From a virus, in IMG/VR virus record IMGVR_UViG_3300025327_000566, positions 1 through 26,321 of that record: 26,321 nt of DNA, one strand, 5' to 3'. Below, piece by piece: positions 2 through 18,262 of this stretch; position 1 is the first letter of the stretch, and each line of letters opens with the position of its first letter. Under the pieces are notes generated by a model, which saw only the letters and a list, made by a program, of their open reading frames with translations, searched no databases and was not told the origin of the DNA. Both the position numbers and the translations under genes were made by a program.

Positions 2-634
2 AATAAAGATTTAAAAAGAAAAATAATTGATTTAAGTTATAACCATAAACTCTCTCATATTGGCAGTTGTCTTACTGCAGTAGACATTATTAAGGATATT
101 TATGATAAAAAGAAACAAGACGAGAAATTTATTCTATCAAACGGACACGCAGGAATAGCTCTTTATGTCGTACTGGAGAACTACTGGAAAGAAAACGGAA
201 GAAATATCGATGCCCAATATATGCTGGAAACACAAGGAATTCACCCTGATAAAACACAGGCTAATGAGTACATAGATTGCTCAACAGGAAGTCTTGGTAA
301 CGGAATTGGTATTGCCGTTGGTATGGCATTGGCTGATAGACCAAAAAATGTCTGGTGCATGATTTCAGATGGGGAACTTGGGGAAGGTAGTGTACACGAA
401 GCACTAAGAGTTGCTGATGAACAAAAACTTACAAACTTAAATGTTTATGTAAATTGGAACGGTTGGGCAGGATATAGAAATACGGATAAATATTATTGTC
501 CTATTTCAAGTTATGTAAATATTTATGAGACTAGAACTGATGTAAACTATCTTCCTTTTCTTGAAGGGTTAGAAGGACATTATCGTGTACTAAGTGAAGA
601 TGATTATAAAATTGCTATGGAAATATTAAAATGA
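2..634 (+). CDS. Transketolase-like TPP-binding (N-terminal/PP domain) subunit, 5' partial
   Basis: The reading frame is open from the window edge, so the true start lies upstream; 210 residues are visible. It matches the pyrophosphate-binding domain of transketolases. Visible residues 19-22 (HIGS) correspond to the first active-site His motif, SNGHAG (46-51) to the second, and GSLGNGIGIAVGMA (96-109) to the cofactor loop. SDGE (122-125) followed by N153-G154 is the Mg-TPP motif: D123 and N153 have the usual spacing of about 30. In such enzymes this subunit holds the diphosphate of thiamine diphosphate and pairs with a pyrimidine-binding subunit, here the next gene (ATGA overlap at 631-634). 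Together they would move a two-carbon ketol unit between sugars. The subunit looks shorter than the usual roughly 270-residue half-transketolase. The exact substrate is unknown; a role in making an unusual sugar is inferred from glycosyltransferase genes 10 kb downstream. Confidence 0.88.
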   Translation, partial: NKDLKRKIIDLSYNHKLSHIGSCLTAVDIIKDIYDKKKQDEKFILSNGHAGIALYVVLENYWKENGRNIDAQYMLETQGIHPDKTQANEYIDCSTGSLGNGIGIAVGMALADRPKNVWCMISDGELGEGSVHEALRVADEQKLTNLNVYVNWNGWAGYRNTDKYYCPISSYVNIYETRTDVNYLPFLEGLEGHYRVLSEDDYKIAMEILK

Positions 635-1152
635 CCCCTATAGAAAGACTACAAAACTATAAGATACATGACTCAATGCGTGGATATTTTGGTTATGAAC
701 TTTATAAAAAGATGATGGTTAATAATGATATTTGGATTATAACTGCCGATCTTGGCTATGGAATGTTTGATCCACACAAAGAAGATTTTTCTGATAGGTT
801 TATTAACGTCGGCGCAGCAGAACAAACAACCATGAATATAGCAATAGGCTTAGCATTATCTGGTAAAATTCCATTTGTTTATTCTATAACACCGTTTCTA
901 CTTTGGAGAGCAGCAGAACAAATCAGACTTTATGTAGACCATGAGAATATTCCTGTAAAACTAATAGGAAGTGGTAGGGACGATGATTATAAACATGATG
1001 GATTTAGTCATAATGCGGAAGATGCACAAAAAATATTAACTGTTTTTGATAACATTATAGAATACTGGCCTGAAGACAAAGTGGAGATGGCAAGAGTTAT
1101 AAATGAAATGACAGAAAATCTAAGACCTAGTTTTTTGAGTTTGAAAAGATGA
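631..1152 (+). CDS. Transketolase-like pyrimidine-binding (C-terminal half) subunit, shortened
   Basis: This 173-residue protein is the pyrimidine-binding domain of a transketolase-type enzyme. ITADLGYGMFD (37-47) is the typical first strand and loop. GAAEQ (61-65) contains the catalytic Glu (E64) that activates the aminopyrimidine of TPP. SITPFLLWRAAEQIR (85-99) matches the family's aromatic-rich helix start, and DGFSHNAED (123-131) matches the conserved G-x-S/T-H-x-x-E-D loop. It should form a heteromeric active site with the product of the preceding gene, which it overlaps by four bases (ATGA). Split transketolases usually have a C-terminal half of about 310 residues with an extra C-terminal domain. 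Here the protein ends right after the pyrimidine domain, so that third domain is absent and the next gene does not resemble it. Catalytic residues look intact; the substrate is unknown. Confidence 0.85.
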   Translation: MTPIERLQNYKIHDSMRGYFGYELYKKMMVNNDIWIITADLGYGMFDPHKEDFSDRFINVGAAEQTTMNIAIGLALSGKIPFVYSITPFLLWRAAEQIRLYVDHENIPVKLIGSGRDDDYKHDGFSHNAEDAQKILTVFDNIIEYWPEDKVEMARVINEMTENLRPSFLSLKR

Positions 1153-1385
1153 GAACCCATCAAATAATTCATTTTGTGGGCAACCAAAAAAGAACTTTAT
1201 TTGATATTGTTGGAGTGAAGGATAATGAGTTTACACAACTTAAACTTGCTGATGGGAGAAAGGTTTTAATAAATAAGCAAAATGTACTTATGATAGAAGT
1301 TTTTAGTCACAATGATAAAATAGCAATGAAAACATGGGGAGAGATGTTTAGAATTTATAGTGCTAATGAGGATAATAATAAATAA
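1149..1385 (+). CDS. Hypothetical small protein, 78 aa
   Basis: I do not recognise this family. The start overlaps the stop of the transketolase C-half by four bases, which supports both the start and translational coupling. The protein has short alternating hydrophobic strands (IIHFVG, FTQLKLADG, KVLINKQNVLMIEVF) separated by charged turns, so a small beta-barrel of SH3-like type is likely. A charged tail ends in EDNNK. No signal peptide, membrane segment or catalytic motif is visible. It lies between the sugar-enzyme pair and the packaging genes and gives no clear hint of which block it belongs to. It is not the missing third transketolase domain, which would be longer and alpha/beta. Confidence 0.6.
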   Translation: MRTHQIIHFVGNQKRTLFDIVGVKDNEFTQLKLADGRKVLINKQNVLMIEVFSHNDKIAMKTWGEMFRIYSANEDNNK

Positions 1386-1511: not shown

Positions 1512-1774
1512 AATCAATTAGTACGCATGATACTTATGAAGCTAGTTTTTATCTACTTTACGGCGGTAAACTTGAAAAGGTAAGAAAGATTAGACTAAAT
1601 GAGAACAGAGCAAAGAAGAAAGGGTTTATTGACCAGTGGATAATAACGGTAGATAATATACCCGAATGGTTAATTGATACCTGGAGAACTCGTAATGCTT
1701 ATGGGAACATTACAATGTTTGTAGATGTCCGCAATAAGTTGAAACGAGATATAAAACGTGAATTCACAGCCTGA
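1508..1774 (+). CDS. Small phage protein, possibly DUF5659-like, 88 aa
   Basis: The 88-residue protein begins STHDTYEASFYLLYGGKLEKV, then a basic stretch, FIDQWIITVDNIPEWLIDTW, and ends VDVRNKLKRDIKREF. This order (threonine-aspartate start, alanine/leucine helix, glycine turn, strand, helix and a final helix with K/R) resembles the DUF5659 family of small phage and Gram-positive proteins, from memory and without alignment. The function of that family is not known to me. The frame has a stop at 1499-1501, so ATG 1508 is the first possible start; no Shine-Dalgarno is visible upstream, where a stable RNA stem ends. It overlaps the start of the small terminase gene by 17 bases. Being directly upstream of the terminase genes, it may be a DNA-packaging accessory protein, which is a guess. 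Confidence 0.6.
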   Translation: MKSISTHDTYEASFYLLYGGKLEKVRKIRLNENRAKKKGFIDQWIITVDNIPEWLIDTWRTRNAYGNITMFVDVRNKLKRDIKREFTA

Positions 1775-2237
1775 TGTTATTGCCCCCGCTCAAAAAAAAT
1801 TAACTAAAAAACAGAGAAAGTGGATAAAGGTATATAGGCAAACATTAAATGCAACTGAAGCAGCCATGCAAGCTTATGATTGTAAGAACAGAGATGTTGC
1901 TAAACAAATAGGGTCTGAGAACATTGCCAAACTTGACTGGTTTGACTTATTAAACTATTCAGGGCTGGATGATGAAACATTAGTGAAAGCGAATGTAGAA
2001 GGTTTAAAAGCTACACGACCAGTTCTTGATCCTACAACTAATACTTTACAGGCTGTAGCTGATTATAGTGTAAGACACAAATATTTAGAAACAGCATTAA
2101 AATTAAAAAACAAGTTACAAGATACGCAAAAAGTAGAACTTACCGGTAAAGACGGCGAACCATTAAAATTAGAAATGTTACTTGGCATAGGATTTCTCAA
2201 TAAACCTGACAATGACCAGAACAATCCAGTTTCCTGA
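1758..2237 (+). CDS. terS: Terminase small subunit
   Basis: The 159-residue protein opens with a basic helix-turn-helix region, LTKKQRKWIKVYRQTLNATEAAMQAY (about 15-40), followed by a variable helix and IGSENIAKLD. This is the layout of small terminase subunits, whose N-terminal helix-turn-helix binds the packaging-start site in concatemeric phage DNA. The middle (about 80-125) is a helical oligomerisation region, and the C-terminus has the VELTGKDGEPLKLE strand pair often seen in small terminases of Gram-positive phages. It overlaps the large terminase gene by 26 bases, as expected for the pair. The small subunit forms a ring that presents DNA to the large subunit. Length is normal for the family. 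Confidence 0.88.
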   Translation: MNSQPDVIAPAQKKLTKKQRKWIKVYRQTLNATEAAMQAYDCKNRDVAKQIGSENIAKLDWFDLLNYSGLDDETLVKANVEGLKATRPVLDPTTNTLQAVADYSVRHKYLETALKLKNKLQDTQKVELTGKDGEPLKLEMLLGIGFLNKPDNDQNNPVS

Positions 2238-3510
2238 TCCTAAAAGAATGATGCCCCATCAACAAGAGGTATTGTGGCTTGATGCGCATAGATTTAAGGT
2301 TTTAATCTGGCATCGTAGAGCGAGAAAAACTACAACAGCTATAAATGAACTTGTTAAACAGGCTCATGTAACACCCGGCCCCTATTGGCATTTGTTCCCA
2401 ACATATAGAGAAGCAAAGGATGCGGTATGGCGTGATCCCAGGATGCTTTTTAGCATAATACCGGAAGAACTTATTGCAAAAAAAAATGAATCAGAGCTTA
2501 TAGTTTACTTTAAAAACGGGGCATATATACAACTAATAGGTACTGATAGTCCCGATAGGTTAAGAGGTGCAGGGCCACTTGGATGTGTATTTGACGAATA
2601 TGACACAATGCACGATGATGCATGGCCAGTTGTAGAACCTATATTGCGTGCTAACGGCGGATGGGCATGGTTTGTGGGTACTCCAAAGGGTAAAACTAAG
2701 CTATTTGAAGCATATCAACGTGGGCAGATGGAAAACAAGGAGTGGAAATCATGGCTTCTAAAGGCATCGTTGTCAGGTATTATTCCACAATCCCAGCTTG
2801 ACGAGTCAAGAAAAACAATGCCGCAATCCCTTTATAATCAGGAGTGGGAATGTGAGTTTTTAGAAGGCGAAGGATCGGTATTTAGAAACGTCAGGGAAGT
2901 ATGTACCGCAGTACCACAGCCAGTTAAACCTAGCCATTACTATGTTATGGGTGTTGATCTTGCAAAAGTACAGGATTTTACAGTTATTACAATTTATGAT
3001 AGGTCTGACAACCGTCAGGTTTTTCAGGATAGATTCCAAACTTTAGAGTGGCCTTTTCAAAAGAAAAAAATTATGGAAATATCCCGTCTTTATAACAGAG
3101 CATTAATCGTTTTAGATGCTACCGGCATTGGTGATCCTATAGCAGATGATTTACTTCGAGCCGGAATGCCCGTTGAACCATTTAAAATAACAAATGAGTC
3201 TAAGAAAGAACTTATCGAGAAACTGTCCATATGGATTGAACAAAAGAAGTTTGCAATGATAAACACAAAAGAAACTCTTTATGAGTTTGATAATTTTAGC
3301 TATGATATATCAAGCAGTGGTAGAATTACTTACGGTGCAAGAGAAGGATTTAATGATGATATTGTTATATCCCAAGCATTGTCGGTATGGGCATTACAAC
3401 CTATACTGCCAAAGGAAGTAATAAAAGAACCAACTGTTATTCAAATTGAAAAGCAGAAACTTGTAAGAAGAATACAACAAGAGGAAGATGATTATAATGA
3501 ATATCAATGA
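2212..3510 (+). CDS. terL: Terminase large subunit (packaging ATPase and nuclease)
   Basis: This 432-residue protein has both terminase domains. ATPase: the P-loop WHRRARKTT at 33-41, Walker B VFDEYD with D128-E129, and the coupling motif GTPKGK at 156-161. Nuclease (RNase H fold): D249 in VMGVDLAKVQDF, D302 in IVLDATGIGD and D382-D383 in FNDDIVISQA, the usual three acidic clusters. It would pump DNA through the portal (gene at 4207) and cut it at start and end of packaging. The P-loop is odd: the Gly normally just before the Lys is Arg (R38), giving RARKT rather than RAGKT. Length and domain order are otherwise typical. It overlaps the small terminase gene by 26 bases and the next gene by 23. 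Confidence 0.96.
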   Translation: MTRTIQFPDPKRMMPHQQEVLWLDAHRFKVLIWHRRARKTTTAINELVKQAHVTPGPYWHLFPTYREAKDAVWRDPRMLFSIIPEELIAKKNESELIVYFKNGAYIQLIGTDSPDRLRGAGPLGCVFDEYDTMHDDAWPVVEPILRANGGWAWFVGTPKGKTKLFEAYQRGQMENKEWKSWLLKASLSGIIPQSQLDESRKTMPQSLYNQEWECEFLEGEGSVFRNVREVCTAVPQPVKPSHYYVMGVDLAKVQDFTVITIYDRSDNRQVFQDRFQTLEWPFQKKKIMEISRLYNRALIVLDATGIGDPIADDLLRAGMPVEPFKITNESKKELIEKLSIWIEQKKFAMINTKETLYEFDNFSYDISSSGRITYGAREGFNDDIVISQALSVWALQPILPKEVIKEPTVIQIEKQKLVRRIQQEEDDYNEYQ

Positions 3511-3955
3511 ACTACAAGAAGTACAAAGCATTGTAAGTAAAACTTATACTCATGAGGAACTTCATGAGGCCTTAATGTTTATACAGGATTTGCTTGAAAG
3601 AAGTATGATTGATTTCTTCTTATTGGGGGACACTGCAAAAGCTATAGTTTCAACGGATCTTCCAAAGTTTAACATGGACAAAATTCATATAGGAGTTACA
3701 AAAAACCATTATAATACTCCAGGAAAATCAATACTTAACACACTTTTAGACGAATGGCATGTTCCCAAAGTTGAAACTGAGAGAGGGTTAAGTTTAGATT
3801 ATAAGGGGCTTCCTATTGAGGTAGATATAATACAAAATGATTACTTCTTTTTTAGTAATCCTGATGTAAGATTTTATACAATAACAGAGTTTAGAGTACC
3901 AAATCCGATGAATGCCTATCTGTCATATTTAGAAAGGTTTAATGACGTTAAGTGA
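3488..3955 (+). CDS. Nucleotidyltransferase-fold-like protein
   Basis: The 155-residue protein has a pattern like minimal nucleotidyltransferases: a helical N-terminus, then FFLLGDTAKAI (43-53) resembling the G-G/S-T-A-L turn, NMDKIHIGV (62-70) resembling the D-x-D strand, and LPIEVDII (108-115) resembling the third acidic strand. The second Asp of the D-x-D position is His (H67), so catalysis may be lost or altered. The assignment is by eye and only moderate. An alternative ATG at 3497 would remove three residues and reduce the overlap with terL; an AGAGGA element lies just before. The gene sits between the large terminase and portal genes, so it may act in packaging or be a host-takeover factor; nothing in the sequence decides this. 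Confidence 0.5.
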   Translation: MIIMNINELQEVQSIVSKTYTHEELHEALMFIQDLLERSMIDFFLLGDTAKAIVSTDLPKFNMDKIHIGVTKNHYNTPGKSILNTLLDEWHVPKVETERGLSLDYKGLPIEVDIIQNDYFFFSNPDVRFYTITEFRVPNPMNAYLSYLERFNDVK

Positions 3956-6477: not shown

Positions 6478-6996
6478 ATGACATACAAAGATTTAAAAGA
6501 AGTAGCAAGAAGTTTAGTGATAGAGAAAGCTAGAAATCTTATGACACAACCTAATCAAAGTATGGGCAGTTCTCCCGAAGATTTAAATATAGAACTTGCA
6601 AGGGCGACATCAGGGAGATATCCAATACAGACAAAACAAGGTTCTAATACCAATTCTTTAATGCAGGGACTACAACTTATGGGGCTTGCAGGAACAGGAA
6701 GTAGAAATCCAGCAGTAACGGAAGCATATAATCGTATAAAATCCCGACAGGGAGACTCACAAGATAGAGAGTTACTAAACAAAGTGGCGATGGATGAATT
6801 AATTAAATCTGCACAGTTTACTGGTGGTGTAAGACAAGTTCCTAATATTGGTAAAGCATTATTAATGTTAAAATCAGGCCAAGCTATCTATGACTCGGCT
6901 TCAAAAATTGTAAAGACTAAGGATATTGCAGGAAATTATATCAATTTGGGGAGATTGGCTAAAAACATTGCTGAAACAGCATTTAAGTATAAGTAA
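6478..6996 (+). CDS. Hypothetical virion-region protein, 172 aa
   Basis: I chose ATG 6478 rather than the upstream in-frame ATG 6406. The later start lies two bases after the preceding stop, whereas 6406 would sit deep inside the neighbouring gene with no ribosome binding site. The protein begins MTYKDLKEVARSLVIEKARNL. It has a Gly/Ser/Asn-rich centre (RYPIQTKQGSNTNSLMQGLQ region) and ends in helices (NIGKALLMLKSGQAIYDSASKIV). No family is recognised, and no signal peptide or clear membrane segment is seen. It is the last gene before a promoter-terminator gap and the scaffold gene. Possible roles include a head-assembly accessory or a minor internal protein, but this is only from position. 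Confidence 0.6.
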   Translation: MTYKDLKEVARSLVIEKARNLMTQPNQSMGSSPEDLNIELARATSGRYPIQTKQGSNTNSLMQGLQLMGLAGTGSRNPAVTEAYNRIKSRQGDSQDRELLNKVAMDELIKSAQFTGGVRQVPNIGKALLMLKSGQAIYDSASKIVKTKDIAGNYINLGRLAKNIAETAFKYK

Positions 6997-7025
6997 TTGA
7001 CAGTAGTTAATTGATAACATAATAT
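6997..7025 (+). promoter_or_regulatory. Sigma70-type promoter before the capsid operon
   Basis: TTGACA at 6997-7002 is a perfect -35 box. A 17-base spacer leads to TAATAT (7020-7025, four of six matches); CATAAT at 7018-7023 (five of six) with a 15-base spacer is the alternative -10. Start of transcription would fall near 7030-7033. A palindrome at 7025-7041 overlaps the start region, and an intrinsic terminator follows at about 7070-7101, so unregulated transcripts would be only about 70 bases long. Confidence 0.55.
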
Positions 7026-7041
7026 TTGTCTAACAGACAAA
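7025..7041. promoter_or_regulatory. Palindrome overlapping the promoter start site (operator-like or short hairpin)
   Basis: TTTGTC (7025-7030) and GACAAA (7036-7041) are perfect inverted arms with a five-base centre. The palindrome covers the end of the -10 box and the likely start site, the usual place for a repressor operator. As RNA it could be only a weak six-pair hairpin. Confidence 0.35.
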
Positions 7042-7069
7042 AGGGCTGTTCATAAGTAGATTTTAAGAG

Positions 7070-7101
7070 GCTACGCATTAAAGGCGTAGCTATTTTTGTT
7101 T
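7070..7101 (+). terminator. Intrinsic terminator upstream of the scaffold gene
   Basis: GCTACGC (7070-7076) pairs perfectly with GCGTAGC (7084-7090) around a seven-base loop and is followed by TATTTTTGTTT. It ends the transcript of the upstream packaging operon and would also stop transcripts from the promoter at 6997. Capsid gene expression therefore needs read-through, antitermination or an unseen promoter further downstream. Confidence 0.8.
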
Positions 7102-7106
7102 ATAGA

Positions 7107-7128
7107 ACATTCCCAGTAAGGGAGATGT
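7107..7128 (+). other. Leader hairpin just before the scaffold ribosome binding site
   Basis: ACATTCCC (7107-7114) pairs with GGGA (7120-7123) and ATGT (7125-7128), with one bulged G at 7124 and an AGTAA loop. It ends 11 bases before the scaffold Shine-Dalgarno and has no T-run, so it is not a terminator. It may stabilise the 5' end of the capsid mRNA. Confidence 0.35.
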
Positions 7129-7152
7129 CTATCGAAAGAAGGTGAAAATAAA

Positions 7153-7911
7153 GTGAATGATTTAAACCAGGATGATTTAAGTAAGGCATTAGGAACTAAC
7201 GATGATAATCAGGATAGCAGTCAAAATCAGTCAAGTACAGATGACAATAGTCAAAAAATTAAAGTTGGGGATGCAGAATATACGCAGGAAGAAATCAACT
7301 CTATGGTTGGGGTTGCAAAGCAGGTTTCAGAAACCGAAAAAAGATACAACACAAGGCTTGATAGAGTCTGGCCCGAATACGGAAGAAGCCAACAAAGAAT
7401 AAAGGAATTGGAAACAGAACTCGAAAGTGCTAGAAAACCAAAAGTTGAAGTACCTGCGGATGAAGCACAACAGATAGAGGAAGCCAAAAGAGCTGCAAAA
7501 AAGTTAGGAATACTGACAAAAGATGATCTTACAGAGCTTGGGATAGTAACAAGAAACGATTTTGATAACTATTATAGGGTACAAAGAGAAACGGAAAGAA
7601 TACTTGATGAAGCGGGCGATCTTGAAAAGGAAATAGATGGCAATGATGGAAGGCCGCCGTTTAAGAAAGAAGAAATACTTGAGTATATGCAGGAGACTGG
7701 GGTAAGAAACATGGAAGTAGCTTATAAGTTAAAGTACGAAACACAACTTGATGCTTGGAAAGACAGTAAACTTGGAAGTGCTAAAAAGGCGGGGATTAAT
7801 ACCATGCAATCACAAGGTTCGGGGTCAGGTAACAAAAAACCTGCCGATATTAAGATAACAAAGGACAATTTAAATGCTTTAGTACAGGAAGCACTAGAAG
7901 GAAAGATATAA
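7153..7911 (+). CDS. Scaffolding protein (head assembly)
   Basis: A GTG start at 7153 is preceded by AAGGTGA (7139-7145) at seven-base spacing. The 252-residue product is very acidic and low in complexity at the N-terminus (Asp, Asn, Ser, Gln rich, residues 1-40). It then contains long charged helices with coiled-coil character, for example RIKELETELESARK (about 82-95) and VQRETERILDEAGDLEKEI. A short basic, Gly/Ser-rich linker leads to a C-terminal helix (ITKDNLNALVQEALEGKI). This composition and the position directly before the major capsid gene are characteristic of scaffolding proteins, whose C-terminal helix binds the coat protein and which leave before or during DNA packaging. No protease motif is visible here or nearby, so removal by exit (as in P22) rather than cleavage is likely. 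Confidence 0.85.
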   Translation: MNDLNQDDLSKALGTNDDNQDSSQNQSSTDDNSQKIKVGDAEYTQEEINSMVGVAKQVSETEKRYNTRLDRVWPEYGRSQQRIKELETELESARKPKVEVPADEAQQIEEAKRAAKKLGILTKDDLTELGIVTRNDFDNYYRVQRETERILDEAGDLEKEIDGNDGRPPFKKEEILEYMQETGVRNMEVAYKLKYETQLDAWKDSKLGSAKKAGINTMQSQGSGSGNKKPADIKITKDNLNALVQEALEGKI

Positions 7912-7926
7912 ATGATAACTTTGAAG

Positions 7927-7934
7927 GGAGGTGA
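7927..7934 (+). promoter_or_regulatory. Consensus Shine-Dalgarno of the major capsid gene
   Basis: GGAGGTGA, seven bases before ATG 7942, is an eight-base match to the anti-Shine-Dalgarno of 16S rRNA. It is the strongest site in the window, as expected for the most abundant virion protein. Confidence 0.85.
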
Positions 7935-7941
7935 CTATTAA

Positions 7942-9189
7942 ATGGCAGATGTTTCTTTAGCTAATGTATCTAATGCCCTGCAAAAGGTAATACTACCTTA
8001 TATACAGGACAACTTTCCCAAACAGAAACCACTATTAGATCAATTAAAAAGAAATGCGGATGTTACCTTCTTTAATGATAACTTCTATGCTCCGGTTAGA
8101 ACTGGTAGGCATGGGGGTATCACAAACTTGGCAACTGATGCGGGTTCTTTGGTAAGCAGCAATGCTTCAATTGGTCAGGCTTCTGTAGGGTATAAAGTTT
8201 TAACGGGTACTTTCAAGATCACCAAAGCAGTTTTGGATGCAACTAAAACCACGAAGGGTGCAGTGGAAAACCAACTGACCTTTCAAGCCAATTCTCTTAT
8301 GGATGACTTTGCAAAGGATGTAAACCGTCAGCTGTATAGTGATGGCTTGGGTGTTGTAGGACAGGTTTTAGGTTCTGTTGGTGCAGGTACTGCATCTTTA
8401 ACACAACCTGATTCCAGCCTTGATGATGGTAGAGGTACAGCCGAGAGATTTGGTTCTATAAACGGTGATATAGCAGTAAATAAATATATTCAAATTGGAA
8501 ATATACTTGGTATAGGTACTGCTGCAGCTGATGTTGGAACTGTTACCTCTGTGGGTGGAACTTCTATTGTAATGACAGGCGCACCTGCAATCGTAGCCAA
8601 TGACACTATATACAGACTTGATGGAGATGCCGCAGGAGCTGGTACTTCTGAAGTAGGTGGACTTATGGATGCGTTATCCATTCTCACCTCTGGAACTTAT
8701 GCCGGAATTGCAAACAGCACTTTCGGATGGAGTCCGCAGCTTGGTACAAGTTCAGCAGCATTAACCCTTTCCGAAATGGAAAGCAACTACTTAGCCGGTC
8801 TTGAGTATGCGCAGTCTGGTGACAAATACGCAATCTTTGTCAACAAAACCTTGTATAAAAAGTATGGTGACATACTAACTTCTATGAGAAGAACCGTTGA
8901 TACGAAGAAATTACTAGGCGGATGGAGTGGTTTAGCTTTTGAAGTAGGAGCAGGTGAAGTTGGGGTTTTCTTGGATTATGATGTTCCTGATGGAGAAGTC
9001 TATATCTTAAACTTGGACTCGTTTACCATATGTCAAATTTCTGACATGGGTTGGGCGGAAGACCCAAGTGGTGGAGCGTTGATAAGATCGAGAGGCACTT
9101 TACTTTACGAAGCTACTATGCACTGGTTTATGAACCTGTTGTGTAGAGCACCAGCTGCTAATGCAAGGTTGGTTCGAAAAACAGCCTGA
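7942..9189 (+). CDS. Major capsid protein (HK97 fold)
   Basis: The 415-residue product fits an HK97-fold coat protein. It starts with a helical N-arm (MADVSLANVSNALQKVILPYI). An E-loop-like region, FYAPVRTGRHGGITNLATDAG, precedes the long spine helix around AVENQLTFQANSLMDDFAKDVNRQLYSDG (about 106-134). A small beta insertion (VGTVTSVGGTSIVMTG to NDTIYRLDGD, about 193-230) is common in phage coat proteins, and EVGGLMDALSIL marks the return to the core. The C-terminal domain has ALIRSRGTLLYEATMHW and ends in the axial region. It has a perfect ribosome binding site. A stable hairpin follows the stop codon (9199-9234). It builds the icosahedral shell around the scaffold. Confidence 0.92.
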   Translation: MADVSLANVSNALQKVILPYIQDNFPKQKPLLDQLKRNADVTFFNDNFYAPVRTGRHGGITNLATDAGSLVSSNASIGQASVGYKVLTGTFKITKAVLDATKTTKGAVENQLTFQANSLMDDFAKDVNRQLYSDGLGVVGQVLGSVGAGTASLTQPDSSLDDGRGTAERFGSINGDIAVNKYIQIGNILGIGTAAADVGTVTSVGGTSIVMTGAPAIVANDTIYRLDGDAAGAGTSEVGGLMDALSILTSGTYAGIANSTFGWSPQLGTSSAALTLSEMESNYLAGLEYAQSGDKYAIFVNKTLYKKYGDILTSMRRTVDTKKLLGGWSGLAFEVGAGEVGVFLDYDVPDGEVYILNLDSFTICQISDMGWAEDPSGGALIRSRGTLLYEATMHWFMNLLCRAPAANARLVRKTA

Positions 9190-9198
9190 TGGTTTTAC

Positions 9199-9234
9199 GT
9201 TGCTGTTTCCATAGCTGGATTAAAAAACAGCAAC
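9199..9234 (+). other. 10-bp hairpin after the capsid gene
   Basis: GTTGCTGTTT (9199-9208) is perfectly complementary to 9225-9234, with a 16-base loop that can itself pair CCA with TGG (9209-9211 and 9217-9219). No T-run follows, so this is not a standard terminator. It may protect the 3' end of capsid mRNA or partly attenuate transcription after the capsid gene. Confidence 0.6.
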
Positions 9235-9258
9235 ATTATAAGGATATGGGTATAAAGT

Positions 9259-9633
9259 GTGTTCAACTCACACAGTCCTTGCAATTATATGGAACTAATA
9301 GATAATCAAAAAAGGGATTATGACAAATATTATGTGAAAAAACCAAAAGAGTTTTCTCCTGAAAGAAATAGGGCAATTATTGACCAAACTATAAGGGAAT
9401 ATGAAGAAACATTAGAGAAAAGGAGAATGGAACAGCAGGAAAATCTTGCTGAGAGAATTGATGCGGCAGCAAGTTATATCATGTATTTAGAAAAGGGCGG
9501 GGGAAGCCCTGCCGAAAAGTATTTTGGAAAAAAAGAACTGGCAAGATTACAAGGGAGAAGGATATTACAAAAATATATAGATATTACGGGACTTGATAAC
9601 AAACTGATTTCTTTTGAGGAGATTGATTATTAA
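9259..9633 (+). CDS. Hypothetical charged helical protein, 124 aa
   Basis: The frame can start at GTG 9259 (with a distant AAGGA near 9240) or at ATG 9289, which would give 114 residues. Neither has an ideal ribosome binding site. The product is rich in Glu, Lys and Arg and mostly helical: RNRAIIDQTIREYEETLEKRR is followed by QQENLAERIDAAASYIMYLEK, then a Gly-rich turn (GGGSPAEKYFGKKEL) and a final helix ending in LISFEEIDY. I do not recognise a family. Placed between the coat protein and a beta-rich virion protein, it may be a minor head component, a chaperone or a head-completion protein. Confidence 0.6.
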   Translation: MFNSHSPCNYMELIDNQKRDYDKYYVKKPKEFSPERNRAIIDQTIREYEETLEKRRMEQQENLAERIDAAASYIMYLEKGGGSPAEKYFGKKELARLQGRRILQKYIDITGLDNKLISFEEIDY

Positions 9634-9640
9634 ATTTTGA

Positions 9641-9650
9641 AAGGTGGTGA
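9641..9650 (+). promoter_or_regulatory. Near-consensus Shine-Dalgarno of the 221-aa virion protein
   Basis: AAGGTGGTGA, six bases before ATG 9657, differs from consensus by one base. The leader up to the start codon closely resembles that of the major capsid gene, which implies high translation. Confidence 0.8.
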
Positions 9651-9656
9651 TTATTA

Positions 9657-10322
9657 ATGCCTGGATTAAAAAAATACTTTCCTGATGTTAGGTTTGGTGC
9701 GAACAAGGTTACACCAGATGAAATTGACTGGAGAATTAGATACACAGTTACAAAGCCTTCGGCTGGTACAGCAGGTGTTGGAACACTGGCTGCTGGAACT
9801 GTTGCGGGTACTTTGGATTTACTTTCAACACAAAATGATTATCCCAGAAACTTGTTATATACAGTTGTAGGGCCGTCTGGTGGCGTTGGTGGTACATTTG
9901 CGGTTACGGGTACAGATCAGTTTGGGGTGTCAAAGACTGAAAGTTTAACTATCGCATCTGCTAATGCCGGTGGTACTGCCGCTGGAACACAGATTTTTGA
10001 TACTGTTTCCACGATAACTTACAACCCTAATGGTGTGGATAACACATCTACAACTACAGTAGGTTATGCAATCGGTACGGCTTCTGGACTTGTGGGCAAG
10101 TTAGGGCTACCTGTAAAGATAAAAGCAGTTGGTGATGTAAAGCGACTTACATGGATTAAAAACGGAACTTACACACCTATACAAGCTGGTACTATCGGAA
10201 CTTTGGTTGTGGATACTACAAATCATGCGTTTCGTGGTACAGCTGTAATGGCTGCGACTGATGAGTGGGTAGTTGAAATAAGACCAACATATAATTACGA
10301 GAATGATACAAATACAGTTTAA
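9657..10322 (+). CDS. Beta-rich virion protein, possible head decoration protein
   Basis: The 221-residue protein starts MPGLKKYFPDVRFGANKVTPDEIDW, then turns into Gly/Thr/Val-rich strand sequence. Typical segments are AGTAGVGTLAAGTVAGTLDLL, SGGVGGTFAVTGTDQFGVSKTE and TSTTTVGYAIGTASG, and it ends with WVVEIRPTYNYEND. This points to a beta-sandwich structural protein. It follows the capsid gene and has an almost equally strong ribosome binding site, so it is probably made in large amounts. A cement or decoration protein on the head surface is the best guess; a major tail or neck component is the alternative. No family name is certain. The gene ends just before a gap with a strong terminator, so it is likely the last gene of the head operon. 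Confidence 0.65.
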   Translation: MPGLKKYFPDVRFGANKVTPDEIDWRIRYTVTKPSAGTAGVGTLAAGTVAGTLDLLSTQNDYPRNLLYTVVGPSGGVGGTFAVTGTDQFGVSKTESLTIASANAGGTAAGTQIFDTVSTITYNPNGVDNTSTTTVGYAIGTASGLVGKLGLPVKIKAVGDVKRLTWIKNGTYTPIQAGTIGTLVVDTTNHAFRGTAVMAATDEWVVEIRPTYNYENDTNTV

Positions 10323-10327
10323 AGGTA

Positions 10328-10356
10328 TTGATTATACTTTTAGTTATTGATACGAT
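10328..10356 (+). promoter_or_regulatory. Weak promoter-like pair before the sugar cassette
   Basis: TTGATT and TACGAT are separated by 17 bases; each box matches four of six consensus bases. The layout (promoter-like pair, then terminator, then gene start) mirrors the gap at 6997-7152. It could be chance in AT-rich DNA. Confidence 0.22.
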
Positions 10357-10397
10357 TAAACTACAAAGTGTCAACTCATGTTCTGTCATCCAGGGGG

Positions 10398-10448
10398 CAG
10401 AATGCCTTGTTTAATCGCCCTGGTGATTGAGCAAGGCATTCTGTTTTT
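10398..10448 (+). terminator. Strong intrinsic terminator with possible alternative pairings
   Basis: CAGAATGCCTTG (10398-10409) pairs perfectly over 12 bases with 10432-10443, and TTTTT follows at 10444-10448. The loop (10410-10431) has an inner four-pair stem. Upstream, TTCTG (10381-10385) can compete for the base of the stem (10398-10402), and CCAGGG (10390-10395) can pair with CCCTGG in the loop (10418-10423). The methyltransferase ATG follows the T-run directly. It ends the head operon and separates it from the sugar cassette. Confidence 0.88.
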
Positions 10449-11102
10449 ATGCAGGGAATATTCTTTAACGATTTTAATAACGCCTATATACCAGAAATTC
10501 TAAAAGAATTGTATCGTGATAAAGTCTATGCAGAGTATATTGAAAGACATGGAAGAAAAGATTTAGAGATTATTGACTGTGGAGGAAACGTGGGACTTTT
10601 TACTTACTACGTATACCCCTATGCTAAAAGAATTTATACAATAGAACCTTCAAAACAGCATTTAGATGTATTAAATTACATGCTTGAGTTTAATAAAATG
10701 ACCGATAAAGTAACTGTTATACCAAAAGCTTTAGCAAATGAAAACGGAAATCTAAAGTTTTATCATAATACAAACACCACAATGTTTTCATTAAAGGAGA
10801 ATGTTAATAATAAACCTGATGAGATTGAAGAAGTTGAAGCAATTACTGTGGATACGTTATTTACTCAATATAATGTAAAGCATATTGATTTTCTAAAGCT
10901 TGATGTAGAAGGGTCGGAAAGTGAGATAATTGGTGGAAATGGATTTGAACAGGTTGCGGATAAGATAGATAGTCTTGTGGTCGAGTATCATGCTTGGAGT
11001 AATACAAACCCCAATCAACTTGTAAACACTTTGAGAGATTATGGGTTTGATGTTAAGAAAATACCAACTCAAGCGGTTTTGTTTGGAGCCAAAAGAAAAT
11101 GA
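10449..11102 (+). CDS. FkbM-family methyltransferase (first of two)
   Basis: A SAM-binding Rossmann core is clear: IIDCGGNVGLFTYY (41-54) is motif I, YTIEPSKQHLDVL (63-75) holds the acidic residue that binds the ribose of SAM, and HIDFLKLDVEGSESEII (145-161) is the signature of FkbM methyltransferases. This family adds methyl groups to sugar hydroxyls or related small groups, often in surface glycan or antibiotic sugar pathways. At 217 residues it is a normal length. The ATG lies immediately after the T-run of a terminator and has no Shine-Dalgarno, so expression must depend on read-through and may be weak. It overlaps the second methyltransferase gene by four bases, and two glycosyltransferases follow. 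The likely substrate is a sugar put on by those transferases (inference). Confidence 0.88.
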   Translation: MQGIFFNDFNNAYIPEILKELYRDKVYAEYIERHGRKDLEIIDCGGNVGLFTYYVYPYAKRIYTIEPSKQHLDVLNYMLEFNKMTDKVTVIPKALANENGNLKFYHNTNTTMFSLKENVNNKPDEIEEVEAITVDTLFTQYNVKHIDFLKLDVEGSESEIIGGNGFEQVADKIDSLVVEYHAWSNTNPNQLVNTLRDYGFDVKKIPTQAVLFGAKRK

Positions 11103-11722
11103 TTGCTGATTACAAAAGTTATAAAATACATTGTTTCGATGACAGATTTGTTAAAGAGGTTTTAATTAATGAGGAGTATAGGTTTTCTAAAGAAGGTAAA
11201 ACTATTATAGATATTGGTGCAAATGTTGGTACTTATAGTATATATGCTTATGATAATGCTGAAATAATCTATGCTATCGAGCCTTCTGAGATTGAGTATG
11301 GGTATCTGGTAAGAAATGTTGAGGTGAATAATTTAGGAAAGATTAAAACTTTTAATATAGCGTTGGGTAAAGAAAATGGCAGACAAAACCTTTATATAGC
11401 ACATGGCAATGGCTCCGGTTCATTTTATGATGAAGGTAATGGTGCCTTTCAACCCGAATCGGTGGAAGTAAAGACATTAGCAACTTTTATGTTAGAAAAT
11501 AACATCGAGTACGTTGATTTAATGAAAGTGGATGTGGAAAAAGCCGAAACAGATATATTCTCTGCAGATGACTTTAAAGAGGTGAGTAATAAGATAGCTT
11601 TTATATTTGGAGAGAAACACGGCAATGACAACCAGTTAGAAGATATATTATCAAAGCATAACTTTGATGTACAGTTTATTGCTAACCACTTTATAGCAAG
11701 AAAAGTCTGGGGAGTGGAATGA
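11099..11722 (+). CDS. FkbM-family methyltransferase (second of two)
   Basis: This 207-residue protein also has SAM-binding motif I (IIDIGANVGTYSIYA, 36-50), the acidic strand end AIEPSE (59-64) and the FkbM signature region YVDLMKVDVEKAETDIF (138-154). In the last of these the usual Gly after DVE is Lys. The overall sequence is clearly different from the first copy, so this is not a recent duplication; the two probably methylate different positions or sugars. The gene overlaps both neighbours by four bases (ATGA), which fixes its start and suggests co-translation. As in the first gene, a role in O-methylation of a glycan is expected from the family and the adjacent glycosyltransferases, but the acceptor cannot be read from sequence. 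Confidence 0.87.
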   Translation: MIADYKSYKIHCFDDRFVKEVLINEEYRFSKEGKTIIDIGANVGTYSIYAYDNAEIIYAIEPSEIEYGYLVRNVEVNNLGKIKTFNIALGKENGRQNLYIAHGNGSGSFYDEGNGAFQPESVEVKTLATFMLENNIEYVDLMKVDVEKAETDIFSADDFKEVSNKIAFIFGEKHGNDNQLEDILSKHNFDVQFIANHFIARKVWGVE

Positions 11723-12495
11723 AACAACCAAGAGTTGCATTTACCATAGCCGATGAAAAGAATATGCCAATGGCTAAAAAACTTCTGAATAACATAAGAA
11801 AGTTCCACAGTGAAGAAGAACTGCCATTTATTATTATTGATGATGAAAAGATTAAAACTTACAACGATCCGACATTCTTTTATCGTGCGACCCCTCTTAT
11901 TGCCAGTGAGTTAATAAAAGATTATGAACTTGTTTTGAAGTTAGATTGTGATCAACTGGTGTTCTCTGGTATTTCTCATATTTGGGAACATGATGATTAT
12001 GATGTTGGTACTGTACTTAACATAAACAGAGTTGATCCCGCAAAGTTTGGTTATGTGACTACTTTTGTTATCGACCCGCAGGAATATTTTAATTGTGGAC
12101 TTGTTGCAATGAAAAGCGAAAGATTTATAGATAAGTGGCTGGAACTTTGCTATTCAAAGTATTTTGATAGGCTACAATATAGAGAGCAGGATTTATTAAA
12201 CGTACTCTGTTATTTTGGTGATTTTAAAGTTAAATGTTTCGATAGGTATGACGTGTTACACGATATATCATCATGGTGGGGACTTATTGCAAAGGGGGAA
12301 GGGATGAGAATGGAGAAGGTAACGGGCGGTGTGAAACTTTCAAAGGGTGTTGATAACTATCCTGACCGTGATGTTGATGTAAAGCTATATCATTTTGCAG
12401 GTGGTGGACACGAACCAAAGAACCACAGGATATTATTCAATGAAGAAATAATAAGTTATATAGACTGGTTACAATCAGATGATAACTCCAAGTAA
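11719..12495 (+). CDS. GT-A fold glycosyltransferase, GT8-like
   Basis: The 258-residue protein has the features of a nucleotide-sugar-dependent GT-A transferase. RVAFTIADEKNMPMAKKLLNNI at the start is the first strand and helix. LVLKLDCDQLV (71-81) contains the metal-binding D-x-D (D76, D78). EYFNCGLVAMKSERF (122-136) is the typical acceptor-side N-x-G strand, YREQDLLN (154-161) contributes acidic residues, and LYHFAGG (223-229) resembles the metal-binding His near the C-terminus of GT8 enzymes. It would transfer a sugar from a UDP-type donor with retention of configuration if it is truly GT8. It overlaps the methyltransferase before it by four bases and the next glycosyltransferase by 17. 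The acceptor may be a virion protein or host surface glycan. Confidence 0.82.
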   Translation: MKQPRVAFTIADEKNMPMAKKLLNNIRKFHSEEELPFIIIDDEKIKTYNDPTFFYRATPLIASELIKDYELVLKLDCDQLVFSGISHIWEHDDYDVGTVLNINRVDPAKFGYVTTFVIDPQEYFNCGLVAMKSERFIDKWLELCYSKYFDRLQYREQDLLNVLCYFGDFKVKCFDRYDVLHDISSWWGLIAKGEGMRMEKVTGGVKLSKGVDNYPDRDVDVKLYHFAGGGHEPKNHRILFNEEIISYIDWLQSDDNSK

Positions 12496-13666
12496 AAAAC
12501 TACGAATACTATTTAATACTAACGCTATATGGTCGCCAAGTGGCTATAGTCAGCAAGCAAGACAATTTATACCTCTTATTAGGCGTGAGGGTTATCCAAC
12601 AGCAATTTCTAACTTCTATGGACAAGAGGGCGGGATATTTGAACTTGATGGAATTATGATGTATCCAAAGATTGCAAACCCGTGGGGAGAAGATGCGATG
12701 ATAGAACACTCAAAACACTTTAACGCTGATGTTATCATCTCTTTGCAAGATGTATGGGTACTTAACATGGATGCGTTAAAAGCATTAAATCAAATGGGTA
12801 AGAAATGGATAACACTTTTACCTGTTGATCATGAACCTATACCCCCAGCTGTACTTGATAGGGTTAAAATGGCATATAGGGTTTTATCTATGTCGCCGTA
12901 TGGATACAGAGAGTTAAAAAGAGTTGGTATTAACTCAACTTATATGCCACATACTGTTCCAACAGAGCATTTTAGAAAATACGATAGAGTGCAAATGCGT
13001 AAAGAACTGGGGCTTCCTGAAGATATATTTTTATTTGGAATGGTCGCCGCTAATAAAGATCATCCGCCACGAAAAGGATTTCAACACGTTTTAGATGCCT
13101 TTAACTTATTCCAAATAGAACATCCCAAATCCGGTATTTATTTTCATGTTAATGTAAAACAACAGGGGGGTTTTCAGATAGAGGAGTATGCTAAAAATCT
13201 GGGTTTTGCAGATAAACTGTATTCAACACCGCCTTACAAGCTTTTATATGATGTACCGCCCGAAGATATGGCCAAGATTTATTCAGCTTTTGATTGTTTA
13301 CTAGCTCCTTCCACTAATGAGGGGTTTGGAATACCCGTAATTGAAGCACAAAGCTGTGAAGTTCCTGTTATAACGACGGACTGGACTTCCATGAGGGATT
13401 TGGTGATTGATGGTGAAACAGGTTTTAAGGTAAAAAATGGGTTTAAAAGGTTTGATCAACTAGGTTCTTATGTGCTGGAAGTTGACTATAAAGAATTATA
13501 TGATCGTATGGAAGATGTTTTTGATACTGACAGGGATAAAATGGGGAAAGAAGGAAGAAGATTTATACTTGATAATTTTGACTTAAAGTTTGTGTTTGAA
13601 ACTAAATGGAAACCGTTTTTAGAAATGCTTGAAAAAGAAATCTATTTAGACGATAATAAGAAGTAG
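12479..13666 (+). CDS. GT-B fold glycosyltransferase, GT4-like
   Basis: This 395-residue protein starts with RILFNTNAIWSPSGYSQQARQF (9-30), whose Gly-rich turn is typical of the first strand-loop of GT-B enzymes. The C-terminal donor domain begins near FLFGMVAANKDHPPRKGF (184-201), where Lys/Arg residues contact the nucleotide diphosphate. The family signature E-x7-E is clear in STNEGFGIPVIEAQSCEVPV (278-297; E281 and E289), followed by TGFKV. These features fit family GT4, retaining transferases using nucleotide sugars. Length is normal. It overlaps the preceding glycosyltransferase by 17 bases and ends the sugar cassette, 39 bases before a small beta-rich virion gene. Two different glycosyltransferases suggest at least a disaccharide or two kinds of linkage. 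Confidence 0.88.
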   Translation: MITPSKKLRILFNTNAIWSPSGYSQQARQFIPLIRREGYPTAISNFYGQEGGIFELDGIMMYPKIANPWGEDAMIEHSKHFNADVIISLQDVWVLNMDALKALNQMGKKWITLLPVDHEPIPPAVLDRVKMAYRVLSMSPYGYRELKRVGINSTYMPHTVPTEHFRKYDRVQMRKELGLPEDIFLFGMVAANKDHPPRKGFQHVLDAFNLFQIEHPKSGIYFHVNVKQQGGFQIEEYAKNLGFADKLYSTPPYKLLYDVPPEDMAKIYSAFDCLLAPSTNEGFGIPVIEAQSCEVPVITTDWTSMRDLVIDGETGFKVKNGFKRFDQLGSYVLEVDYKELYDRMEDVFDTDRDKMGKEGRRFILDNFDLKFVFETKWKPFLEMLEKEIYLDDNKK

Positions 13667-13705
13667 TTTATAAAATTCGGCTTATCCAGGTAAAAGCTTT
13701 AAAAA

Positions 13706-14005
13706 ATGGTTAATTCAGCAAGTCAATCTGAGTATAGACATATTATTGGTACAGCTGCTGGTACTACTGTTCTTCTTGATAGAAATGGCGGATTTGAACG
13801 AGTAATACTTAATAAAAACCAAACAGGAACCGTAACTTTTTATGATGTGGCCACTGCCGCCGGCAGTACCGCTGCTAATCTCATAACTGTTATGAATAAT
13901 AATGTAGGATCAATTCCTACAGGTGTAGAACTGGGATGTAGAGTAAAATATGGTCTTGTAGCAGTAGTGGGTGGTACGACTGATTTTACAGTTGTTTTTA
14001 ACTAA
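13706..14005 (+). CDS. Small beta-sandwich virion protein, 99 aa
   Basis: The protein reads as alternating strands and Gly/Thr turns: IIGTAAGTTVLLDRNGGFERVILNKNQTGTVTFYDV, AANLITVMNN and ending GLVAVVGGTTDFTVVFN. This pattern (a lead-in, RV-I-NK, G-TVT-YD, and a closing strand pair with TVV) is shared by small phage virion proteins that cap or decorate particles, as I recall them; no name is certain. The ATG lacks a clear Shine-Dalgarno; the nearest AGG is about 15 bases upstream. It is the first gene after the sugar cassette and precedes the fibre gene by 12 bases, so it probably belongs to the surface or fibre block. Confidence 0.65.
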   Translation: MVNSASQSEYRHIIGTAAGTTVLLDRNGGFERVILNKNQTGTVTFYDVATAAGSTAANLITVMNNNVGSIPTGVELGCRVKYGLVAVVGGTTDFTVVFN

Positions 14006-14017
14006 AAGGAGTACAAA
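14006..14017 (+). promoter_or_regulatory. Shine-Dalgarno supporting a TTG start of the fibre gene
   Basis: AAGGAG at 14006-14011 lies six bases before TTG 14018. No ATG or GTG fits this site, so it decides for the rare TTG start. Confidence 0.75.
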
Positions 14018-14944
14018 TTGTCTTCAAGTTATCCTGGGACTATACAATCAGTAACTGATTACGCAGGGACAGTAACTCTTGCTAATGCAGATCACGCAAA
14101 TTGGCATGCTACAACATCAGATACTGTGGAAGCAATAGAGACTGTACTTGGTACAACTGCAGGAACTTCAGTATTAAAAAACTTTGCTGCAGGAGATTTT
14201 CCTGCAAGAATAAACTCGTCAAACGTATTACAGCAAGCACTGCAAGGGACTATAAATACTTCAACTTTAGGTACTCCAACAGTAATACTTGGCTCTGACG
14301 CAACAGGTGATTTACACTACAGGTCTGCAGGTGGGACTATGACAAGGCTTGGGGTTGGTAGTAATGGACAGTATTTGACAACAAATGGTACAACACCATC
14401 GTGGGGAAGTGTGAGTACAGATTATCAAAGTGGTACACAAATTTATGCCACTGACGGTGGTGCAAACGATACCTATGCCATTACTTTATCTCCTGTTCCT
14501 GGTTCTTTAACAACGGGGATGGTGGTACATTTTAAAGCAAATACAGTAAATACAGGTTCAGCAAGTTTAAATGTAAACTCTCTTGGCGAAAAGCCAATTT
14601 ATAAAAGTCAGAATAAACTACTTGATACAGGAGATATAAAAGCGAACCAACTTACATCAGTTATATATGATGGTACAAACTTTCAGCTTTTAGGAATGTC
14701 TGGTAAAAGAATTGAAGCTGGTCGTGGCACGAGTGATGGTAGTGGCGATGTGTCTGTAACATTCACACAAGCGTTTTCTGCAGCACCTAATCTTGTTGTA
14801 ATGGCTGCACCAGCTGGTGGCACACCTTGTTATGCAAACATTTCAGCAGCTATTACTACATCAGGAGTTTCAATAAGAACTTATGGTTCCGTTGGTGCTC
14901 TTTTAGGTACGGTGCCTGTTGAATGGATGGCATTTGGATATTAA
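14018..14944 (+). CDS. Tail fibre / receptor-binding protein with lectin-like C-terminus
   Basis: The 308-residue protein starts at TTG with a good AAGGAG. Its N-terminal part (DYAGTVTLANADHANWHATTSDTVEAIETVLGT) resembles the attachment region of phage fibres. GDLHYRSAGGTMTRL followed by GSNGQYLTTNGTTPSW (about 105-130) is a motif seen in many tail fibres. The centre (FKANTVNTGSASLNVNSLGE, then VIYDGTNFQLL) resembles repeated fibre domains. The C-terminal 79 residues from KRIEAGRGTSDG contain SVTFTQAFSAAPNLVVMAAP and end VEWMAFGY, the layout of H-type lectin domains that bind sugars. It probably recognises a cell-surface glycan. It lies directly before the giant repeat protein, with a three-base gap. 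Confidence 0.78.
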   Translation: MSSSYPGTIQSVTDYAGTVTLANADHANWHATTSDTVEAIETVLGTTAGTSVLKNFAAGDFPARINSSNVLQQALQGTINTSTLGTPTVILGSDATGDLHYRSAGGTMTRLGVGSNGQYLTTNGTTPSWGSVSTDYQSGTQIYATDGGANDTYAITLSPVPGSLTTGMVVHFKANTVNTGSASLNVNSLGEKPIYKSQNKLLDTGDIKANQLTSVIYDGTNFQLLGMSGKRIEAGRGTSDGSGDVSVTFTQAFSAAPNLVVMAAPAGGTPCYANISAAITTSGVSIRTYGSVGALLGTVPVEWMAFGY

Positions 14945-14947
14945 CTT

Positions 14948-17900: not shown

Positions 17901-18262
17901 GTACAATTTCTGCAAGAAATACAGAAAATATTTTAACTTATGGTACACAGTTTGCAGCAACAGCTGCAGCTTACGCAACTCTAGTTGGTTCGGCATCGGT
18001 TGGTTCTGGGACATCTTTATACATGCAGAACTTTAATCTTATCAACCCCGCTGGTACAGTATTGGCACTTCTTGGTCTTGGTACAGCATTAAATGGGACT
18101 TCAGTATTATTTAGAGGAATACTTGGAACACAAACTGTTGGCGGGATACAAAAATCATGGGATAAACCCGTTAATGCAGGAATGACTAACCAAGATTTGG
18201 TTGTATACTTAGGTGCTGCAGGAACAGTTGATGTTACAGTTAGTTATTTCATAAAGGTATAG
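14948..18262 (+). CDS. Giant Gly/Thr-repeat beta-solenoid-like virion protein, 1104 aa
   Basis: This protein is dominated by short repeats with GT followed by I, V or L about every 6-12 residues, which suggests a stacked beta-strand fibre or solenoid. Recurrent modules include IPGGT-L-G-LITRVGN-GT-E-GT, MPNVPGGTLG and VTRLEQGSINVTAGTITAG. A second module of about 38 residues (A-SG, NP, GTD-GGTVYSFLTDT-GHMK) occurs four times, near residues 193, 331, 427 and 828. A non-repeat domain lies near 625-735 (VYWEVGGTWVGTAFFEGQVG), and the last 100 residues (YMQNFNLINPAGTVLALLG to VDVTVSYFIKV) form a different closing domain. It contains nucleotide-level repeats (separate entries). It is likely a long surface fibre or tail appendage. 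Its Thr/Ser-rich surface makes it a candidate acceptor for the neighbouring glycosyltransferases, which is inference. Confidence 0.75.
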   Translation: MAIEVIKVTDGTQTPIGFDQVGTVYEQVIKLDISADGAASAILYDGKVQGGTINAATVAGGSIAVTAGTVNVTAFGADIPGGTIDLVTRVGNVGTLEVGTISILPNIPGGTLGLITRVGNLGTVESGTLTSVGSVSGVGGTVMVDIVAGDIVASLGTINSGTITRVEQGSINVTAATITAGSIRVTVGTTGGAVASGAAAVGNPNIIAGTDSGGTVYSFLTDTTGHVKADILTGTVTNVGSVVGIGSVSNVAFIHNAGTIAALPDLTGGTVDLVTTVSNLTNGSVRMTVGTLTVMPNVPGGTLGVVSSLTTGSIIVTNGTVAAGTVGGKAASGVVISGNPIPVGGTDSGGTVYSFLTDTLGHMKVDMVSGTLNVGTVTTSVQVGTINVGTINTGTINAGTVDLLKAGTVTRLEQGSVNVTVGTIGGKAASGAVAVANPVFIAGTDPGGTVYGLRTDTAGVLQINGTVSTGGAGTQAVRLVDGTLTRVEGGTLGLITRVGNIGTLEVGTVTIGAVNSIGTLGTLQLGTVVVNAGTNVIGNVGLVDSSGIYGLDFIVTQTDGASDGLNGLVASSFGYYHNGTNWDRVRGDLTNGLLVNLGANNDAVITAGTITHGTIDVGTITVGTVYKGVPAPAAGSLTAAGTVTVAGSQNDTVYWEVGGTWVGTAFFEGQVGTSTYFAVPVTTPLGVIGTQTTSNGAFLMSATGLDNTRLRVTYSSGTLTHNERASNFFSNLSYIMAGSVTNMGSVSNIGQLYNAGTIQTILAGTINNSGTTTGVGVVSMLSAGTVTKLEQGSINVTAGTITAGTLTALANGTVTAGSIRVTLGTVVGAAASGAAASGGPVLTGGTDGGGTVYSFLTDTTGHMKADLLTGTVTSVGSVTGVGVVTNLTSGSVRMTVGTLTVMPNVPGGTLGLLQAGTISMLSAGTVSMLNAGTLTTIPNIPGGTIGVVSSLTTGSIAVTAGTVIMTNGTIGAGTVVVSAATIAAGTISARNTENILTYGTQFAATAAAYATLVGSASVGSGTSLYMQNFNLINPAGTVLALLGLGTALNGTSVLFRGILGTQTVGGIQKSWDKPVNAGMTNQDLVVYLGAAGTVDVTVSYFIKV
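15578..15603 (+). repeat. 26-bp direct repeat, copy 1 (GTD-GGTVYSF module)
   Basis: This stretch is identical to 15986-16011. It encodes the DSGGTVYSF part of the four-copy module in the giant repeat protein; the fourth copy near 17490 uses different codons. Confidence 0.85.
15799..15859 (+). repeat. 61-bp perfect direct repeat, copy 1
   Basis: These 61 bases are identical to 17620-17680 and encode VRMTVGTLTVMPNVPGGTLG in both places. Identity at silent positions points to recent duplication or gene conversion, since other copies of the module have diverged. Confidence 0.92.
15986..16011 (+). repeat. 26-bp direct repeat, copy 2
   Basis: Identical to 15578-15603, about 400 bases downstream in the same gene. 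Confidence 0.85.
17429..17458 (+). repeat. Perfect 15-bp tandem duplication
   Basis: GGTGCGGCAGCTTCC occurs twice in direct succession (17429-17443 and 17444-17458), encoding GAAAS twice in the giant repeat protein. It keeps the reading frame and may vary in copy number. Confidence 0.9.
17620..17680 (+). repeat. 61-bp perfect direct repeat, copy 2
   Basis: Identical to 15799-15859. The flanking sequences differ on both sides, so the duplicated unit is sharply bounded. Confidence 0.92.

Follow-up and report, generated by a model that had tools for sequence, protein, structure and literature searches.

Two overlapping genes at the left end of a viral contig, a short distance before its terminase genes, raise the question of what a transketolase-type enzyme does in a phage. 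The stretch analyzed here (the window) is an entire IMG/VR record, a linear sequence of 26,321 bases that probably represents a fragment; its relevant features are collected in Table 1. A first-pass annotation had read the two genes as a split transketolase with an intact ThDP site, lying beside the packaging block and serving sugar building rather than carbon metabolism.

Table 1. Features of the window that bear on the function of the two-chain enzyme.
Feature	Coordinates	Strand	Evidence or remark
PP (pyrophosphate-binding) subunit of two-chain ThDP enzyme	2..634	+	PF00456, E 1.1e-12
PYR subunit of ThDP enzyme, ends at PYR/TKC boundary	631..1152	+	PF02779, E 2.7e-16
Small conserved ORF, overlaps PYR stop	1149..1385	+	79% identical in syntenic relative L125
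Terminase small subunit	1758-2237		Downstream of PYR gene
Terminase large subunit	2212-3510		Downstream of PYR gene
FkbM-type methyltransferase	10449..11102	+	PF05050, E 3.9e-19
Second FkbM-like methyltransferase	11099..11722	+	32% identical to FkbM protein of L125
Family-8-type glycosyltransferase (GT8)	11719..12495	+	PF01501, E 4.3e-6
Group-1 glycosyltransferase	12479..13666	+	PF00534, E 8.6e-18

The PP chain comprises 210 aa in the window, its 5' end being lost at the contig end with few codons missing, and the PYR chain comprises 173 aa. Their matches to Transketolase_N and Transket_pyr, respectively, lie above the curated Pfam cut-offs, and the two open reading frames (ORFs) overlap by 4 bases. 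Among solved structures, PP and PYR are closest in sequence to the two chains that make up the split transketolase of Carboxydothermus hydrogenoformans. AlphaFold models (mean pLDDT, 95.2 for the window PYR and 91.7 for the full-length PP from the nearest relative) matched split or full-length transketolases in the PDB, with 6YAK as the top structure match for the PP model. With VIA-align 2, PYR residues 8 to 173 were superposed on residues 347 to 520 of Escherichia coli transketolase (EcTK). Since the last PYR residue, R173, aligned with EcTK R520, where the TKC domain would start, this third domain is absent from the window protein. The TKC domain (PF02780) was likewise found in none of 40 related phage records, some of them fragments, while all 14 control genomes were positive, and complete viral PYR chains measure 147 to 196 aa, compared to about 300 to 305 aa in the cellular long forms described below.

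Based on these comparisons, the PP and PYR genes encode a minimal two-chain transketolase (TK)-like enzyme without TKC. The first-pass reading of a split transketolase holds for the two TK-like chains but not for a whole transketolase, given that the TKC domain is missing and the phosphate site is altered (see below). Loss of TKC could impair assembly, and the phage pair is a natural two-domain system for asking what this domain does. The small ORF that overlaps the PYR stop matched nothing in Pfam or PHROG and is possibly part of the same transcription unit as PP and PYR.

The ThDP residues picked out by the first-pass annotation, D123 and N153 of PP and the catalytic Glu, E64, of PYR, do not vary among the first six relatives or in the viral set, in which residues were counted for 84 PP and 85 PYR sequences. 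Together with the Pfam matches and the overlap, this alignment bears out the claim of two overlapping genes with intact catalytic residues. The window PP also retains the equivalents of EcTK H26, H66, H100, D155, E160, N185, and H261, and those of H26, H66, H100, D155, N185, and H261 are kept in every viral PP that covers the position; in PYR, 85/85 viral sequences have the catalytic Glu as well as the equivalent of H473. The donor residues of transketolase are H66, H100, G114, and H473, and 1-deoxyxylulose-5-phosphate synthase (DXPS), which uses pyruvate, has a Phe at the H100 position (PMC7661550). Since this position is His in 84/84 viral PP sequences and the donor residues are kept, the donor is expected to be a ketol and not pyruvate, and DXPS or a pyruvate-type donor was ruled out by the His.

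The PYR positions equivalent to R318, S345, H416, and R474 of human TK are presumably those that bind substrate phosphate. The two Arg equivalents are mostly retained in PYR sequences. At the position of the phosphate-contacting His, H416, a Gly is found in 85/85 viral, 16/17 short genomic, and 55/57 long genomic sequences; no viral copy has a Ser at the S345 position, whereas 21 long forms do. The viral proteins thus depart from the phosphate-site set of metabolic transketolase (EC 2.2.1.1), in that the Arg residues are kept, the Ser is replaced, and the His has become Gly. The Asp that contacts the acceptor in aldehyde-using TKs is present in 81/85 phage proteins but lost in most long forms, which suggests that the acceptors of the phage and cellular enzymes may differ.

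Whether the two genes belong to a phage at all was addressed through the nearest relative (L125/L007), which has the same gene order as the window over 13 genes and is 51 to 87% identical to it, gene by gene, from PP through the first FkbM gene. Directly upstream of PP, this relative encodes a 286-aa SDR (Epimerase, PF01370), beyond which lie more phage genes, including one for a ParB-like protein. The GC content of positions 1 to 1152 of the window is 33.5%, versus 33.4% in neighboring DNA. Given this synteny, the phage DNA upstream in the relative, and the even base composition, the objection that the contig is a chimera with host DNA fails. A sugar-nucleotide gene of the kind that the first-pass annotation had suggested looking for upstream is present in the nearest relative, and the gene cut from the left end of the window is most likely a nucleotide-sugar SDR just beyond the contig edge.

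A scan of viral contigs with a PYR alignment yielded 78 loci, or 85 viral loci once the window and the first hits were added; six of these were second fetches of the same contig, leaving 79 distinct contigs and 62 loci after dereplication. A search of viral contigs with the window PP protein returned one relative only, because PP search patterns are poorly conserved. An SDR gene lies directly upstream of PP in 70/85 viral loci (64/79 distinct contigs) and within 2.5 kb of PP in 77/85 (71/79 distinct), so SDR-PP-PYR is a conserved three-gene sugar cassette. It recurs in two layouts, either before the terminase, as in the window, or ~9 kb past it, with FkbM and glycosyltransferase genes as neighbors. 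The reported location beside packaging genes accordingly describes the window, where the terminase follows, but not the many relatives of the second layout. The FkbM family is represented in 40 of the 62 dereplicated loci, in 27 of them no more than 1.5 kb from PYR, and the GT8-type cluster in 33. We found no description of a phage cassette of this kind, or of gmhA in phages, in the open-access literature. One further match, in a 115-kb record labeled Acinetobacter phage MD-2021a, was rejected as viral, since the stretch around its transketolase genes resembles a bacterial chromosome and is flanked by metH, pitA, and dsdA.

The SDR partners retain the Rossmann and YxxxK motifs, and an SSSE/SSSV-type motif is common among them. 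Of the 85 short-form loci having an SDR, 82 carry the motif [ST]SS[EV] and none carries the TDE motif of 4,6-dehydratases; the latter assignment was dismissed on this ground. SSSEYG also occurs in 13 of the 23 SDRs whose genes immediately precede a cellular long form, and the motifs indicate that one SDR subfamily is common to phage and cell. The highest-scoring solved relatives in an SDR profile search include epimerase-domain proteins and GDP-6-deoxy-lyxo-4-hexulose reductase.

Six dereplicated viral loci (L083, L095, L097, L105, L111, and L131) carry additional genes upstream of the cassette, 2 to 5 kb from PYR, for a GmhA-like isomerase, an HddA-like GHMP kinase, and a small nucleotidyltransferase of 169 to 198 aa, with a tiny HAD-like ORF also in some. 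This set possibly constitutes a phage heptose-nucleotide route; as the matches fall below the curated equivalog cut-offs, the exact functions of these genes are not fixed.

One scan of genome contigs recovered 74 cellular loci, in which PYR was short in 17 and long in 57; the sample was selected with two short patterns, so that the fractions that follow are not unbiased estimates. The long forms have a PP of about 270 aa and a PYR of about 305 aa, with room for TKC. In a FastTree phylogeny, every one of the 74 short forms included in the tree grouped in one clade with a support of 1.0; deeper branching inside this clade, with supports of 0.1 to 0.98, was not relied on. Within the fetched 10-kb flanks of the long-form loci, we detected RfbF-like (22/57), RfbG-like (14/57), and RfbH-like (15/57) proteins, and at least two of the three were found in 18/57, a raw count without a background rate for other surface-sugar genes. 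RfbF-like proteins are cytidylyltransferases, and these neighbors together mark the CDP-4-keto-3,6-dideoxyhexose route; in the Microcystis locus L054, the glucose-1-phosphate cytidylyltransferase, CDP-glucose 4,6-dehydratase, and RfbH score above NCBIfam cut-offs. Heptose genes are rarer in the long-form loci (GmhA in 5 and HddA in 4). Genes for keto-nucleotide-sugars thus adjoin many cellular relatives, whereas in phages the SDR alone is constant. RfbF, RfbG, and RfbH were not found in the viral loci, which leaves the host or the SDR alone as the source of the phage keto-sugar substrate.

Among the short cellular relatives, a family-2 glycosyltransferase gene often adjoins PYR. In one Bacteroidetes genome (L051, positions 8359 to 10011), SDR and PP are fused in a single 550-aa ORF adjoining PYR, a fusion that would tie the two activities together. 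A prophage (L011, positions 6532 to 15172) within a 487-kb Roizmanbacteria (Patescibacteria) contig carries, in order, genes for an integrase, SDR, PP, a methyltransferase-like protein, PYR, terminase, and portal, and it suggests Patescibacteria as hosts for at least some of the relatives. In this genome, the one host checked, a separate transketolase match lies in a 625-aa open frame.

From this material, we propose that the SDR would make or finish a keto nucleotide-sugar, that the PP/PYR pair would move two carbons, as a hydroxyacetyl (ketol) unit, from a donor (ketose-phosphate or hydroxypyruvate) onto this keto sugar, and that the product would be a branched sugar or one with a lengthened chain. 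FkbM methyltransferases would then decorate the new sugar, the enzyme encoded by the first FkbM gene of the window probably acting at such a later step of the cassette's glycosylation program, and the phage glycosyltransferases would attach the product, most likely to virion proteins and possibly to a host surface glycan. The analysis directly documents gene content, domains and homology, key residues, the lost third domain, how widely the cassette is conserved, and the surroundings of the cellular relatives. The donor class is deduced from residues and the acceptor from neighboring genes, and the phage glycosyltransferases point to the target, be it virion or host surface. A role of the cassette in some kind of nucleotide-sugar synthesis is highly probable; for the predicted ketol transfer that would yield a branched or extended sugar, we regard the odds as about even. 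The complete proposal, that a minimal, active two-chain TK-type enzyme without TKC builds a branched nucleotide-sugar that decorates the virion, has in our estimate a probability of roughly one in three. If true, phages would make a branched sugar of their own, and the enzyme would be a transketolase that naturally accepts ketones.

The chief rival remains viable because heptose-type genes occur in six phages. In it, a working transketolase would supply sedoheptulose-7-phosphate (S7P) as the entry into a heptose pathway of the phage (GmhA, HddA-like kinase, nucleotidyltransferase, and SDR) leading to NDP-heptose for glycosylation. Such an enzyme would be served by the retained equivalents of H66, H100, H473, R318, and R474 and by the acceptor Asp; however, the heptose genes are confined to 6/62 dereplicated loci, whereas the SDR is the constant partner, and they are outnumbered by RfbF beside the cellular long forms as well. 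The phosphate-contacting His is Gly in every viral protein and the Ser is replaced, and the Roizmanbacteria host carries its own transketolase. On balance, we consider S7P supply doubtful. The last two observations, together with the absence of TKC, also count against the idea that the phage boosts the host pentose phosphate pathway during infection, as with phage transaldolase. Although the intact catalytic residues and the homology of both chains to transketolase are what such an auxiliary central-carbon gene would have, the conserved neighbors are SDR, FkbM, and glycosyltransferase genes, and no central-metabolism neighbors were seen in the viral loci read. Context and residues alike disfavor this role, which we regard as very improbable. 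The relatives lie in phages and in surface-sugar clusters, not in a complete central-metabolism operon, and the preference of the first-pass annotation for a sugar-building role over host carbon metabolism is well supported by this gene context.

A different target with unchanged chemistry is also conceivable: the cassette might alter the host cell-surface glycan, for superinfection exclusion or receptor change, and leave virions unmodified. The surface-polysaccharide-type clusters around the cellular relatives fit this idea, as does the copy in an integrase-bearing prophage, where lysogenic conversion would help. The viral cassettes, however, sit among structural genes and adjoin FkbM and glycosyltransferase genes, and the family-2 glycosyltransferase of the cellular short forms is found in 0/85 viral loci; we judge a host-glycan target unlikely.

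The two-chain enzyme has partial parallels in known systems. In the C. hydrogenoformans split TK (ChTK; PDB 6YAK/6YAJ; PMC7661550), PP and PYR are also on two chains, and the donor residues H66, H100, and H473 are common to it and the phage pair. Its split is nevertheless of another type, with PP on one chain and PYR plus TKC on the other: ChTK-C measures 341 aa in the entry, with the match ending at 193, whereas in the phage the chain goes no further than the PYR boundary. The phage PP is also shorter than that of ChTK, and the phosphate-contacting Ser and His are lost in the phage. According to a review (PMC12247030), chemistry like that proposed here has been suggested, though it is unproven in vitro, for the two-chain TKs of the antibiotics miharamycin and amipurimycin: a hydroxyacetyl unit would pass to a keto sugar whose formation a neighboring oxidoreductase assists. 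The likeness to these antibiotic enzymes is one of description, and the phage form is without TKC; the small phage proteins could serve for a direct test of this unproven idea. The cellular long forms that adjoin RfbF, RfbG, and RfbH (for example, L054 in Microcystis, L056 in Marinomonas, and L072 in Enterovibrio) are homologous chains that, like the phage proteins, have lost the phosphate His and have an SDR neighbor and sometimes FkbM, but their chains are longer, CDP-sugar genes are present, and the acceptor Asp is mostly lost.

Among isolated phages, the Campylobacter phages CP21 and CP220 (Firehammervirus) carry short PP-like and PYR-like ORFs, and the best BFVD match was an IBB35 protein. 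CP21 and CP220 differ from the cassette-bearing phages in having no adjoining SDR in the stretches read and a PP-like ORF without most TK active-site motifs, which is likely to be noncatalytic or to have a changed role. The cassette as found here ties a widespread uncultivated phage group, including at least one Patescibacteria prophage, to dedicated nucleotide-sugar chemistry, and such virome genes should not be counted as pentose phosphate auxiliary genes.

Two other ORFs of the window drew our attention. Between the large terminase gene and the portal region, positions 3488 to 3955 encode a 155-aa protein that is conserved in 17 relatives and has no match in Pfam or PHROG. Positions 14948 to 18262 encode a 1,104-aa protein built from many short GT-rich repeats; it gave no match in PHROG and is possibly a structural or fiber protein.
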